Shown piece by piece: positions 9,102-59,518 of a DNA stretch of 64,000 nt (position 1 is the stretch's first letter; each line of letters begins with the position of its first letter). This DNA is from Sanguibacter gelidistatuariae (GTDB lineage: Bacteria; Actinomycetota; Actinomycetes; Actinomycetales; Cellulomonadaceae), in NCBI RefSeq assembly GCF_900096585.1, contig NZ_FMYH01000006.1, positions 124,001-188,000 on the forward strand. Direction: 5' to 3'. A program made the translations under genes and the position numbers. The notes below the pieces were generated by a model. The model had not been told where the DNA came from, made no database searches, and saw only the letters and a list, made by a program, of their open reading frames with translations.

Positions 9102-9212
9102 GCTTCGAGCCTAGTTCAGACGTCTGACAGTCCTCGTGCGGGTATCGCCGCGGGCGACACGCGCAGACGTGATGGGTGTCACATTCTTAGGCTTGCGGCT
9201 ACGGTGTGGGGC

Positions 9213-9725
9213 ATGGGCGCCTTTCACTCGTACACGACAGCCATCACCTGGACCGGCGCGGGCACCGAAGGGACCGCCTCCTACACCAGCTATTCCCGAG
9301 ATCACCTCGTCGGCGCAGAGGGCAAGCCGGATATCTTGGCGAGCGCCGACCCTGCGTTCCGGGGCGACCCTGCGCGGCACAACCCGGAGGAGCTCTTTGT
9401 CGCGAGCCTCTCCCAGTGCCACATGCTGTGGTTCTTGCACATGGCCGCCGTGGCCGGGGTCGTGGTCCGGTCGTACACCGACACCGCGGTGGGCACCATG
9501 CGGGTCGAGTCCGCCGGAGCTGGCCAGTTCACCGAGATCGAGTTGCGACCCCGCGTCATAATCGACGACGACGACGCGCCGGACCGCGACGCCCGGATCG
9601 CGGAGCTGCACGAGCGCGCGCACGCGCACTGCTTCATCTCCCGGTCGGTCAACTTCCCGGTCCGCATCATCCCAGCGGTGCGTCCCGCCGTGGCCGCCGC
9701 CCACGCCGGTCACCCCTTCCGCTGA
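9213..9725 (+). CDS. OsmC family protein
   Basis: OsmC/Ohr proteins are small cysteine-dependent peroxidases that reduce organic hydroperoxides. The 170-residue product has the OsmC order: RHNPEELFVASLSQCHMLWFL with the first cysteine at residue 69, and HERAHAHCFISRSVN with the second at residue 140. The ATG start at 9213 follows a purine-poor leader, so the message may be leaderless. It is divergent from uvrC. Its stop codon TGA lies inside palindromic repeat copy A, so the last residues abut a repeat insertion. Confidence 0.9.
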   Translation: MGAFHSYTTAITWTGAGTEGTASYTSYSRDHLVGAEGKPDILASADPAFRGDPARHNPEELFVASLSQCHMLWFLHMAAVAGVVVRSYTDTAVGTMRVESAGAGQFTEIELRPRVIIDDDDAPDRDARIAELHERAHAHCFISRSVNFPVRIIPAVRPAVAAAHAGHPFR

Positions 9726-9783
9726 GTGCGGTCAAACGGTTGCCCTCTGTCCGATTTGGGCAGCCATTCGAGCGCACTCAGCG
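9720..9783. repeat. Palindromic repeat copy A (about 64 bp)
   Basis: One of four copies in the window of an imperfect palindrome beginning CGCTGAGTGCGG and ending CGCACTCAGCG, with a semi-conserved centre (GGTTGCCC...CCGATTTGGGCAGCC). It overlaps the stop codon of the OsmC gene and precedes the lipoprotein gene. The other copies are near 23.4, 40.4 and 58.4 kb. Confidence 0.85.
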
Positions 9784-23434: not shown

Positions 23435-23497
23435 CGCTGAGTGCGGGCACATGGCTGCCCGGCGGGCGTTTTGTCCAGCCAATCCCCGCACTCAGCG
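23435..23497. repeat. Palindromic repeat copy B (63 bp)
   Basis: Same family as copies A, C and D: starts CGCTGAGTGCGGG and ends CCCGCACTCAGCG, centre GGCTGCCC...TTTTGTCCAGCC, with one base missing in the right arm. It lies between the convergent ABC exporter and rpsA genes. This 314-bp gap holds no gene: only this copy, the tandem duplication and two hairpins. Confidence 0.85.
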
Positions 23498-40441: not shown

Positions 40442-40504
40442 CGCTGAGTGCGGGCGAATGGCTGCCCAAATCGGGTATCTGGCAGCTATATGACCGCACT
40501 CAGC
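40442..40504. repeat. Palindromic repeat copy C (63 bp)
   Basis: Starts CGCTGAGTGCGGGCGAATGG and ends GACCGCACTCAGC, with the centre CTGCCC...TATCTGGCAGC. It lies 40 bases past the YdjM-like gene in the 257-bp convergent gap before pyk; the only other structure in the gap is the long hairpin nearby. Confidence 0.85.
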
Positions 40505-55621: not shown

Positions 55622-57571
55622 TCAGCGCACCTGGGAGACCCAGGCGGCGTGCATCCTCGCGTAGTGACCGTCGGCCCCGACCAGGTCGCGGTGCGCCCCG
55701 ACCTGGGCGATGCGCCCCTCGTGCACGACGACGACGAGGTCGGCCGCCTCCGCGGTCGAGAGCCGGTGCGCGATCGTGATCGTCGACCGGCCCTGGGTCA
55801 GGGAGTCCAGCGCCCGGGCGACGCGCACCTCGGTCACCGGGTCGACGGCGCTGGTCGCCTCGTCGAGCACGAGCAGATCGGCCCCGGCGAGGTAGGCGCG
55901 GGCGATCGCGACGAGCTGGCGCTCCCCGGCGGAGAGGGACTCCCCTCGCTGGCCGATCTGGGTGGCCAGCCCGTCCGGGAGGTCGGCGACCCAGTCGGTC
56001 AGGCCGAGGTCGGCGACCACCTGGTCGAGGAGCGTGGCGAGGACGGCGTCGGGCGGGGTGGTGGGCAGGGCGGTGAGCCCGGCGGTCGCGGTCGTGCTCG
56101 CGGTGGCGGGCGCGGCGTCGGGCACGGCGTGTTCCGGCGCTGCGCGGGCGGGCCGGTGCCCGTAGGCGATGTTGTCGGCGAGCGACCCGTCGAAGAGGAA
56201 GCCCTCCTGCGGGACCATGACCACCCGGGCGCGCAGGCTCGCCGCGCGGATGTCGCGCAGGTCGGTCCCGTCGAGCAGGACCCGGCCGTGGACCGGGTCC
56301 ATGAGTCGGGTGGCGAGCTTGGCCAGGGTCGTCTTGCCCGAACCCGTCGCACCCACGACCGCGACCCGGGTGCGCGGGGGCAGCACGAGGTCGATGCCGT
56401 GCAGCACGGGCGCACCGTCAGGGTAGGCGAAGGTGACGCCGCGGAACTCGATGCCGGCCGGCCCGCGGGGGCTGTCCACCCCGTCCGCACCGGGGTCGGC
56501 GACCAGGACCGGGGTCTCCAGGACGGCAAGCACCCGACGCCACCCCGCGACCGCGTTCTGCAGCTCGTTGAGGATCTCGGTGGCCATCTGGACCGGTCCC
56601 GTGAAGAGCTGGACGAGGAAGAGGAAGGCGAGCAGCTGACCGATGGTCAGGGTCCCGCCGACCCCGAGGTACGTGCCGGCCACGACGACCGCGCTGAGCA
56701 CGATGTTCGCGACGAGCACGCCCGAGGAGAAGACGACCGAGACGAGGTTCTGGGCGCGGATCGCCGAGCGCCGGTGAGAGTCGATCGCACCGTCGATGCG
56801 TCGCTGGGTGCGCGCGCCCACGCCATAGGCGCGGATCGTCTCGGCCCCCACGACCGCCTCGGAGACGGCTCCGAGCATGGCGCCGACCTTGGCGCGTACG
56901 GCGGTGTAGGCGTGGTTGACCTTCTTCTGCGCCGGACGCAGCACGAAGAAGAGCGGCACGAAGCACACCCAGACCACGATCGTCAGCTGCCAGGAGTAGA
57001 AGGCCATGAGAACGGTGGCGGCGAGGATCTGCAGGACCGAGACGAGCAGCATGATGCCGCCCCACTGGACGAACAAGGAGATCGTGTCGACGTCGCTGGT
57101 CACCCGTGAGACGAGCGACCCGCGACGCTCGGTGCTCTGGGACAGCACGGACAGGTCGTGGACGTGTCGGAACGCCTTGACCCGCAGCGAGGCCAGGCCG
57201 GCCTCGGTCCTCTGGAACAGGCGCACGTTGACCAGGGCCGAGCACACGCCGGCGAGCAGCAGCACGACCGCGGCGCCCGAGACGAGCCAGGCCACCCGGG
57301 TCGTGTCTACCCCGCCGGGGGCCAGGATCCCGGTGTCGACGGTCTGCTGCACAGCGAGCGGCACGACGATCCGGCCCCCCGCGGCCACGACCGCCAGGAG
57401 CAGCGTGATGACCACGCCCTCGAGGATCTCGGGCGAGACCTGGACGCCGCGCCGCAGGGTCGCGAAGACCCCGAGCTCGCTCGCGGAGGCGATCGCGCCG
57501 GTGTCGGCCGCTCCTACCTCGGAAGCGTTCTGTGCTGGCACACCTTGTGCGGCCCTTCGCGCGGCGCTCAC
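55622..57571 (-). CDS. Heterodimeric ABC exporter, half B (permease-ATPase)
   Basis: The 649-residue protein has six membrane helices (about 45-335) and one ATPase domain. Walker A is GATGSGKTT, Walker B LLVLDEATSAVD with catalytic Glu, H-loop IAHRLST, but the signature is LSAGERQ instead of LSGGQ. An Ala/Thr-rich insertion (~60 residues) lies before the signature. The pattern complements the partner gene (Asp in Walker B, canonical signature), as in exporters with one degenerate ATP site. Its start overlaps the partner's stop codon. Confidence 0.9.
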   Translation of the reverse strand: MSAARRAAQGVPAQNASEVGAADTGAIASASELGVFATLRRGVQVSPEILEGVVITLLLAVVAAGGRIVVPLAVQQTVDTGILAPGGVDTTRVAWLVSGAAVVLLLAGVCSALVNVRLFQRTEAGLASLRVKAFRHVHDLSVLSQSTERRGSLVSRVTSDVDTISLFVQWGGIMLLVSVLQILAATVLMAFYSWQLTIVVWVCFVPLFFVLRPAQKKVNHAYTAVRAKVGAMLGAVSEAVVGAETIRAYGVGARTQRRIDGAIDSHRRSAIRAQNLVSVVFSSGVLVANIVLSAVVVAGTYLGVGGTLTIGQLLAFLFLVQLFTGPVQMATEILNELQNAVAGWRRVLAVLETPVLVADPGADGVDSPRGPAGIEFRGVTFAYPDGAPVLHGIDLVLPPRTRVAVVGATGSGKTTLAKLATRLMDPVHGRVLLDGTDLRDIRAASLRARVVMVPQEGFLFDGSLADNIAYGHRPARAAPEHAVPDAAPATASTTATAGLTALPTTPPDAVLATLLDQVVADLGLTDWVADLPDGLATQIGQRGESLSAGERQLVAIARAYLAGADLLVLDEATSAVDPVTEVRVARALDSLTQGRSTITIAHRLSTAEAADLVVVVHEGRIAQVGAHRDLVGADGHYARMHAAWVSQVR

Positions 57572-59442
57572 GCTTCTTCCTCCCGTCGGGCGGCCTCACG
57601 CTGGTAGGCCAGCGCTAGGTCGCGGAATCCTTCGTCACGTTCGATGAGCTCGTGGGCCGGGCCGGTGTCGACGACCGCCCCCGACTCCAGGTGCACGACC
57701 CGGTCGGCCAGCGCGACGCTCGACATCCGGTAGGCGACCATGACGACGGTCGTCCCGGAGCCGGCCCGCAGTCCGGCCAGGATGCCCTGCTCGACCTCGG
57801 GGTCGACCGCGCTCGTGGCGTCGTCGAGAATGAGCAGCCGCGGCCGGCGGACCAGCGCCCGCGCCAGCGCGACGCGCTGACGCTGCCCGCCCGAGAGGTT
57901 CGCCCCGCGTTCCCCGAGCGGGGCGTCCAGGCCCAGCGGGAGCGCACGCACGACGTCGGCCACCCGGGCCACCTCGAGGGCGGCCCACACCTCGTCATCG
58001 GTCGGGCGGTGGGGGTCGTCATCGTCAGCCAGGGTGATGTTGGCGCGGATCGTGTCCTCGAAGATGAAGGTGGTCTGCGAGACGAAGGCGACCGCCCCGG
58101 TGACGTCCTCGGCTATGAGGTCGCGGACGTCCACGCCGTCGAGCAGCACCTGCCCGCGGCTGGGGTCGGAGAGTCGGCTGAGCAGCGAGACGAGCGTCGT
58201 CTTGCCGGCCCCGGTCGGCCCGACGACCGCGACGGTCTCCCCCGCGGCGACATCGAGGGTGATTCCCTTGAGCAGGTTGACGTCTCCGGTCGCGCTCGGA
58301 ACGCTCACCCCGACGTCGTCCAGGCGCACCGCCAACCCCTCCGCCGGTCGCTGAGTGCGGCCGAACGGCTGCCTTGCGGGCGATTTGTCCAGCCGTTCGA
58401 CCGCACTCAGCGATCCGGGGAGGGGACGGGTGCCGGGTGGGAGGGCGCCTCGAGCGTCGAGGACCTGACTGATCCGCTCGTGGCCGACGAGGCCACGGGG
58501 CAGCTCTCCGAGCACCCAGCCGAAGGCGCGGACCGGGACGGCCATCATCGTCAGCAGGTAGGCAGCCGAGACCACCTGGCCTGTCTCGACCGCCCCGCCC
58601 TGGACCCGGTAGGTCCCCACGAGCAGGACGAGCAGCGTGCCCAACGGGGGCAGGAACTCGATGATCGGGTCGAAGAACGCCCGGACCGTGCCGACCCGGA
58701 CGTTGGCCGCGCGCAGCGCAGCGGTGCGCTCGGCGAAGCGAGCCTCCTCGCGCGCCTCGGTGCCCAGCGCCTTGACCAGCAGCGCCGCCTCGAAGCTCTC
58801 GTGGGCGACGTCGGCCACCTCGGCCCGCAGCTGCTGGGCGAGCGTGATGGCCGGTGACATGTACTTCTGGAAGACCAGGTTGACCAGAACCGCGACGGGC
58901 AGCACGCTCAACGCCGCGACGGCCAACCAGCCGTCCAGGCTGAACAGGGCTACGGCGGCGATCACGATCATCACGCACACCCCGAGGGCGAAGGGCAGGG
59001 GGTTGAAGACCCCGGTCGCCGCCTCGACGTCGGAGCTGACGTTGGAGAGCAGCTGGCCGGTGGGGTGCGCGCGGTGCCAGGACATCGGCAGCTCGAGGTA
59101 CCGGGCGGTGACCGCTCGACGGTGCCTGGCCTGCAGGTTCGCGACACCGATGCCAGCGAAGATGCGGCGGGCGGCGACGCTCAGGGCGAGGGCGACGCCG
59201 ACGGCGGCCAGGGCCGCCCCGCCGACCCAGGCCCGCCCGGCGGGTGTGGCGTCGTTCATCGCCGGGACCACGATCGTGTCGGTCACCTTGCCCAGGACCT
59301 GACTGACGGCCACGGTCAGGCCGCCGAAGAGCGCCGACGCGCCGATCGCGAAGACGTAGATGCGCCACTCGGCGCGGATCCCCGCCCCCATGAGCGCCAG
59401 CGAACGACGGGTACGACCGCCGGTGAGGGCATGGGTGATCAC
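57568..59442 (-). CDS. Heterodimeric ABC exporter, half A (permease-ATPase, degenerate ATP site)
   Basis: The proposed GTG start (leaderless-like) gives 624 residues. Membrane helices cover about 10-320. Walker A GPTGAGKTT and signature LSGGQRQRVALA are canonical, but Walker B reads LLILDDATSAVD (Asp for catalytic Glu) and the H-loop His is Tyr (MVAYRMS). This half therefore forms the degenerate site with half B. Residues ~344-365, between membrane and ATPase domains, are encoded by palindromic repeat copy D, read in frame (SLSAVERLDKSPARQPFGRTQ). The substrate is unknown. Confidence 0.9.
   Translation of the reverse strand: MITHALTGGRTRRSLALMGAGIRAEWRIYVFAIGASALFGGLTVAVSQVLGKVTDTIVVPAMNDATPAGRAWVGGAALAAVGVALALSVAARRIFAGIGVANLQARHRRAVTARYLELPMSWHRAHPTGQLLSNVSSDVEAATGVFNPLPFALGVCVMIVIAAVALFSLDGWLAVAALSVLPVAVLVNLVFQKYMSPAITLAQQLRAEVADVAHESFEAALLVKALGTEAREEARFAERTAALRAANVRVGTVRAFFDPIIEFLPPLGTLLVLLVGTYRVQGGAVETGQVVSAAYLLTMMAVPVRAFGWVLGELPRGLVGHERISQVLDARGALPPGTRPLPGSLSAVERLDKSPARQPFGRTQRPAEGLAVRLDDVGVSVPSATGDVNLLKGITLDVAAGETVAVVGPTGAGKTTLVSLLSRLSDPSRGQVLLDGVDVRDLIAEDVTGAVAFVSQTTFIFEDTIRANITLADDDDPHRPTDDEVWAALEVARVADVVRALPLGLDAPLGERGANLSGGQRQRVALARALVRRPRLLILDDATSAVDPEVEQGILAGLRAGSGTTVVMVAYRMSSVALADRVVHLESGAVVDTGPAHELIERDEGFRDLALAYQREAARREEEA
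58349..58412. repeat. Palindromic repeat copy D (64 bp), inside the ABC exporter half A gene
   Basis: Starts CGCTGAGTGCGGCCGAACGG and ends CGACCGCACTCAGCG; arms of 22 bases match at 21 positions, the best palindrome of the four copies. It lies within the coding sequence, encoding about 21 residues of the linker between the membrane and ATPase domains without a stop or frame change. Confidence 0.9.
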
Positions 59443-59518
59443 GAGCTGAGCCGTCCTAACCGAGGGGAACGTAAATCTTCTCACAGGCGCCGGTCCCCAT
59501 ACGTGCCACGATGGGCAG

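Follow-up and report, generated by a model that had tools for sequence, protein, structure and literature searches.

A window of 64,000 nucleotides from Sanguibacter gelidistatuariae (contig NZ_FMYH01000006.1, positions 124,001 to 188,000 of the forward strand) was analyzed, in which the gene for an ATP-binding cassette (ABC) half-exporter, half A, is crossed in frame by a palindromic repeat, copy D. Positions are counted within this window. The features at the locus are the following:

55622-57571, minus strand: adjacent half-exporter B, probable partner of half A (translation; motifs LDEATSAVD and AHRLST)
57568-59451, minus strand: ABC half-exporter A, bearing the element (gene frame, Pfam domains, orthologue alignment, fold search)
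57811-58272, minus strand: ABC_tran ATPase domain, residues 394-547 (Pfam)
58349-58412, no strand assigned: copy D, a 64-bp palindromic element with CGCTGAGTGC ends and an 18-nt loop at 58372-58389 (fold, pattern searches, copy alignment)
58543-59349, minus strand: ABC_membrane domain, residues 35-303 (Pfam)

The gene at 57568-59451 codes for an ABC half-exporter, its ABC_membrane and ABC_tran domains scoring 118.7 and 108.4 bits against curated cut-offs of 28 and 25. Its start is not fixed, as the open frame reaches upstream to 59775, and residues are counted from 59451. Given the extents of the two domains, the insert sits in the linker between them. The gene frame is open across 58349-58412 without a stop and encodes SLSAVERLDKSPARQPFGRTQ from residue 347. 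The domain downstream is conserved: Walker A, the signature and other invariant motifs are intact in the orthologue alignment, and LDDATSAVD and AYRMSS are present in all eight aligned rows of half A. Set against LDEATSAVD and AHRLST of half B, these motifs presumably mark a degenerate ATPase site in the half that bears the insert, and a heterodimeric exporter is probable. A fold search with an AlphaFold model of half A, which is a poor one (overall predicted local distance difference test, pLDDT, 65.9), ranked heterodimeric exporters first.

Copy D has arms of ~23 bp each, within an inverted repeat of 36 nt that is 89% complementary. A 72-nt sense RNA of copy D folds at -54 kcal/mol, compared with -25.4 ± 3.0 for shuffled sequences (z = -9.6), and its arms form 21 of 22 Watson-Crick pairs, against 18 in two other copies of the window (a 61-bp window copy was left out of the arm-pairing scores). 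The preliminary description regarded copy D as the best-preserved copy, which holds for arm pairing within the window and fails genome-wide: among 54 scored copies of the genome, 8 pair better and 6, copy D included, share its value, and with 49 of 62 positions identical to the subfamily consensus it ranks only 43 of 48.

The residues SLSAVERLDKSPARQPFGRTQ are missing from all seven aligned half A orthologues (two from Sanguibacter, four from Promicromonospora, and one from Cellulomonas), an alignment that excluded the partial orthologue L016 and 13 distant matches, and from half A in five of five same-genus genomes; the two sets overlap. Below, G000 is the genome studied, G005 its sister species and nearest sequenced relative, and G001-G004 are four other Sanguibacter. 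In G005, the orthologous transporter site is empty at the nucleotide level, and the net gain in G000 is 60 nt. As the element itself spans 62 to 64 bp, the target would have lost a few bases, or the flanks would have changed. The length of the linker differs between half A orthologues in both alignments, and the place of insertion therefore looks permissive. Judged from these comparisons, copy D is a lineage-specific insertion and no ancestral linker. The in-frame position between membrane and ATPase domains given by the preliminary description, and the gap it expected in orthologues without the repeat, were thus both confirmed, and the shared residues it took as the sign of an ancestral linker occurred in none of them (0/7 and 0/5).

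A dispersed family with fixed ends

Copy D belongs to a family with the ends CGCYGAGTGC...GCACTCRGCG, a near-fixed length, and variable interiors. Over 49 aligned copies, the consensus ends are CGCTGAGTGC and GCACTCAGCG, with neither a GTAG nor a CGTC tag at the foot of the hairpin, and the element is set at 64 bp because its outermost C (49/49) and G (48/49) are conserved. An arm pattern allowing at most 3 mismatches matched 50 copies in G000, and a fixed-length search for the ends, allowing a single mismatch, matched 60, while the controls (for the arm pattern, its reversal) gave 0 in both cases; a looser single-arm pattern gave one control match. G000 contains at least 68 copies: 60 of fixed length, another 6 measuring 60-61 bp, and 2 weaker copies. 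Searching by the ends alone brought in copies whose interiors differ; those with exact ends numbered 48 in G000 and 17 in G005 (a minimum for the sister species), with 0 in G001-G004, and the arm pattern found no copy in G002-G004. The distribution of the family over the order is patchy. A match was present in 16 of 297 genomes surveyed, and more than one only in G000, G272 (23), and G187 (4); the single-match genomes look like chance, because the reversed control also gave single matches in 8 genomes. The family-level survey with the arm pattern matched 3 of 61 genomes (G000, G016, and G050).

Between the arms of the 49 aligned copies, pairing holds in 90.5% of cells, compared with 88.9 ± 0.4 after shuffling, and double-sided changes were counted in 39 cells versus 24.2 ± 5.3, a type of count that kinship among copies can inflate. 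In 24 of the 49, the column pair 13-52 is broken.

Fourteen G000 sites could be placed in G005 DNA, and by an exact-core test 11 of these were without an element and 3 had one (L075, L129, and L130). Where both species carry the element, the interiors differ at L075 and L130 (pairs L075/L113 and L130/L117), and at L129 (pair L129/L124) the elements match better when one is inverted (50/62 v 41). At L054 (pair L054/L102), the G005 element is 53/62 identical in the same orientation, with only one flank aligning beside it, and at the L066 site no element lies within ~260 nt of G005 DNA. Terminal inverted repeats, dispersed copies, and empty orthologous sites, three marks of a miniature inverted-repeat transposable element (MITE), are present. 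The other copies in the window are these:

9721-9782, no strand assigned: family copy supplying the TGA predicted to end the gene at 9204-9725 (plus strand)
23436-23496, no strand assigned: 61-bp family copy, outside predicted genes
40443-40504, no strand assigned: family copy, intergenic, 41 nt past a gene 3' end

Position of the copies relative to genes

Gene calls came from a home-made codon model for which the 64-kb window was the training set, and 64 of the at least 68 G000 copies were classified by position; look-alikes with 3 end mismatches (some flagged inside genes) and the gene-overlapping L081:1015 stand outside these counts. For the majority (51/64), a gene 3' end was no more than 150 nt away; 7 supplied the stop of a gene through their GC-TGA, 5 were elsewhere in intergenic DNA, and only copy D was inside a gene. 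Hence 63 of 64 copies are extragenic, as in repetitive extragenic palindromic (REP) sequences, and 58 are at gene 3' ends, compared with random window positions of which 89% fell within genes and 5% in 3' regions. Copies elsewhere were placed as follows: G005 (n=17), 10 at 3' ends, 5 as stops, and 2 other; G050, 4 of 4 at 3' ends; G187 (n=5), 2 at 3' ends, 1 stop, and 2 other; G016 (n=7), 3 at 3' ends and 4 stops; and G272 (11 copies from 10 loci, against 23 in the survey), 6 at 3' ends, 2 overlaps, and 3 other.

Each element end in G000 usually contains GC-TGA, so that on either strand one frame is closed. Across six genomes, the TGA of the end motif closes a predicted gene in 17 copies (7 in G000, 5 in G005, 4 in G016, and 1 in G187), and therefore a gene running into a copy usually stops there; the two gene-overlapping copies of G272 do not end their gene at the element TGA. 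The G000 genes stopped in this way are 9204-9725 (plus strand) and those at loci L039, L070, L072, L076, L083, and L084.

The preliminary description proposed that the element tolerates an open frame or is under selection for one. As a property of the element, this found no support. A whole copy leaves on average 3.23 of 6 frames open, fewer than its shuffles (4.09 ± 0.12). On the other side, the interior taken without the ends is slightly more open than its shuffles (5.05 v 4.62 ± 0.10 frames), in copies that share ancestry. Since nearly all copies lie outside genes and 1 of 64 inside, the family is not under selection to keep a frame open. Copy D is an exception that is tolerated, and its codons are unadapted.

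On both strands, the DNA beside the elements is rich in C and poor in G (C 0.56-0.58 and G 0.13 in the first 10 nt), a skew that fades over ~80 nt (60 G000 copies, loci L036-L084 and L126-L133), whereas other 3' regions of the window are without it (0.38 and 0.33; n=34). The empty sites of G005 are mostly not C-skewed; the transporter site is so in part (0.50/0.35 and 0.54/0.23).

Origin of the insert in half A

We consider it very probable that copy D is a REP- or MITE-like dispersed noncoding palindrome that was inserted after the split from the nearest sequenced relative and is tolerated in the linker. A 64-bp element with the ends CGCYGAGTGC would have entered the half A gene after the species split, and the frame would have been kept by a net +60 nt, with 64 bp gained and ~4 bp of target lost, or 62 gained and 2 lost. 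The ~20 additional residues, probably unstructured, would be tolerated between the membrane and ATPase domains because the length of this linker varies among orthologues. The codons of the insert are atypical (score rank 30 from the bottom among 607 windows of the gene), its GC content at third codon positions is 0.76 versus 0.91, and its peptide resembles the family consensus translated in that frame (LSAV...QPFDRTQ). With none of four outgroups does the G000 branch show an excess of unique replacements (16 v 24, 18 v 23, 18 v 20, and 13 v 24). Atypical codons, the consensus identity of 49/62, and the lack of a replacement excess fit a recent and tolerated insertion, with its neutrality unproven. 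We infer a mobile element, a neutral insert, and production of the full-length half A protein.

A pLDDT below 50 at residues 334-370 agrees with an unstructured linker. Several observations weigh on the other side. The AlphaFold model, built with 8 sequences, is poor overall, and its low confidence in the linker can support disorder only weakly. Were the insertion recent, the relative-rate test could detect little. No direct repeat was evident by eye in the flanks of 49 copies, the empty sites being too diverged to show a target-site duplication, and no transposase was identified; movement is thus deduced from presence and absence. Moreover, loss from every relative, rather than gain, is formally possible.

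Exaptation, the term used in the preliminary description, would mean that selection has acted on the linker peptide, or on a very stable mRNA hairpin that could slow the ribosome between the domains. The 21/22 paired arms, the -54 kcal/mol of the sense RNA, and a site between two domains speak for this. Nevertheless, we hold it to be unlikely: the codons are unadapted and the consensus identity is 49/62, the linker is modeled with low confidence, the insert is shared by no orthologue, copy D is the single one of 64 classified copies in a gene, and the 8 of 54 copies that pair better are not in genes. An even less likely scenario is that the element disrupts expression or folding and that half A is a pseudogene in the making. 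A long stable hairpin within the mRNA and the unadapted codons would agree with such inactivation, but the frame is intact and stop-free, the invariant motifs are retained, and the replacements show no excess. Finally, that an ancestral linker forms a palindrome by mere coding coincidence, which could appeal only to the variable linker lengths, is hardly credible when sequence of this type recurs 60 times in G000 at the fixed length, nearly always extragenic, and no orthologue has the residues.

Relation to known repeats and spread of the family

The preliminary description called the insert unusual, and within this family it is; among bacteria at large there are precedents. Rickettsia palindromic elements (RPE) are described as occurring in frame in many Rickettsia genes (PMC10969869), and sequences like the Wolbachia palindromic element (WPE) likewise keep the frame in genes of Wolbachia, although one premature stop was noted (PMC4224334). 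As there, where short palindromic repeats stand in frame in unrelated proteins, copy D lies in a conserved gene whose orthologues are without it; the Sanguibacter element differs in its 64 bp, in having 1 of 64 copies rather than a large share within a gene, and in its phylum. The GTAG/CGTC REPs, as outlined by Di Nocera 2013 (PMC3733652), are units of 20-40 bp with stems of 5-13 bp and a GTAG or CGTC tag at one hairpin foot. Intragenic ones are rare there; dimers and grouped units code for 20-30 residues, and in linkers they may be neutral. The CGTC type likewise has no dedicated transposase. Small palindromic repeats with rare intragenic copies are common to both groups, while the Sanguibacter family has arms of ~23 bp, a near-fixed 64 bp, the ends CGCYGAGTGC, and a consensus without the tag. 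Thus, with RPE, WPE, and intragenic REPs as precedents, the in-frame palindrome is a finding of a known kind. It extends the Rickettsia and Wolbachia case, in that a strong palindrome can enter an actinobacterial membrane-protein gene with the frame still readable.

With bacterial MITEs the family shares terminal inverted repeats, lack of coding capacity, dispersal, and hairpin formation, and it differs in that no target-site duplication was visible and no insertion sequence sharing its ends was found as a parent. As for the host protein, the fold matches of half A, with a low-confidence model, were TM287/288, TmrAB, BmrCD, and Rv1273c/72c. No description of the actinobacterial family was found in the open-licence papers searched, and no element matched Rfam at the gathering threshold in 10 loci. 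Phage and plasmid records held nothing matching copy D, and viral contigs no exact match of the 64-bp end pattern. An autonomous version was not found in G000 with the arm and paired-end patterns, nor with single ends in loci L036-L084.

REP-associated tyrosine transposases (RAYT) were rejected as the mover, since Y1_Tnp (PF01797), the transposase family searched for, was present in 0 of 10 genomes versus 5 of 14 control genomes; a RAYT-linked REP is thus not what was found. Flanking inverted repeats were rejected as a target, because flank complementarity (15.65) matched that expected from composition (15.20 ± 0.49).

The larger point is the family itself, which is patchy, with fixed ends, a near-fixed length, interiors differing between species, and no Y1 transposase, and whose copies are strongly associated with the 3' ends of genes, so that both its movement and a part in transcript termination can be tested. 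More tentatively, and with considerable doubt on our part, the element might be a length-gauged symmetric 3'-end module of actinobacteria, acting in bidirectional Rho-like termination or as a 3'-stabilizing unit and spreading independently of RAYT. The 10-bp ends and a near-constant length would be preserved as the interior was replaced, in some cases at an orthologous position, C-rich and G-poor flanks would arise on both strands, and copy D would be a stray targeting of a C-rich coding linker.

Two G005 ends 1.7 kb apart (L148:10187-11925) were considered as a transposon and rejected, being two element copies that bracket genes. We take these genes to be a PadR-like one and others of no known identity. 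In G272, a SAM-IV (S-adenosylmethionine) riboswitch was noted at L135:4620-4733 (minus strand), ~1.5 kb from an element.
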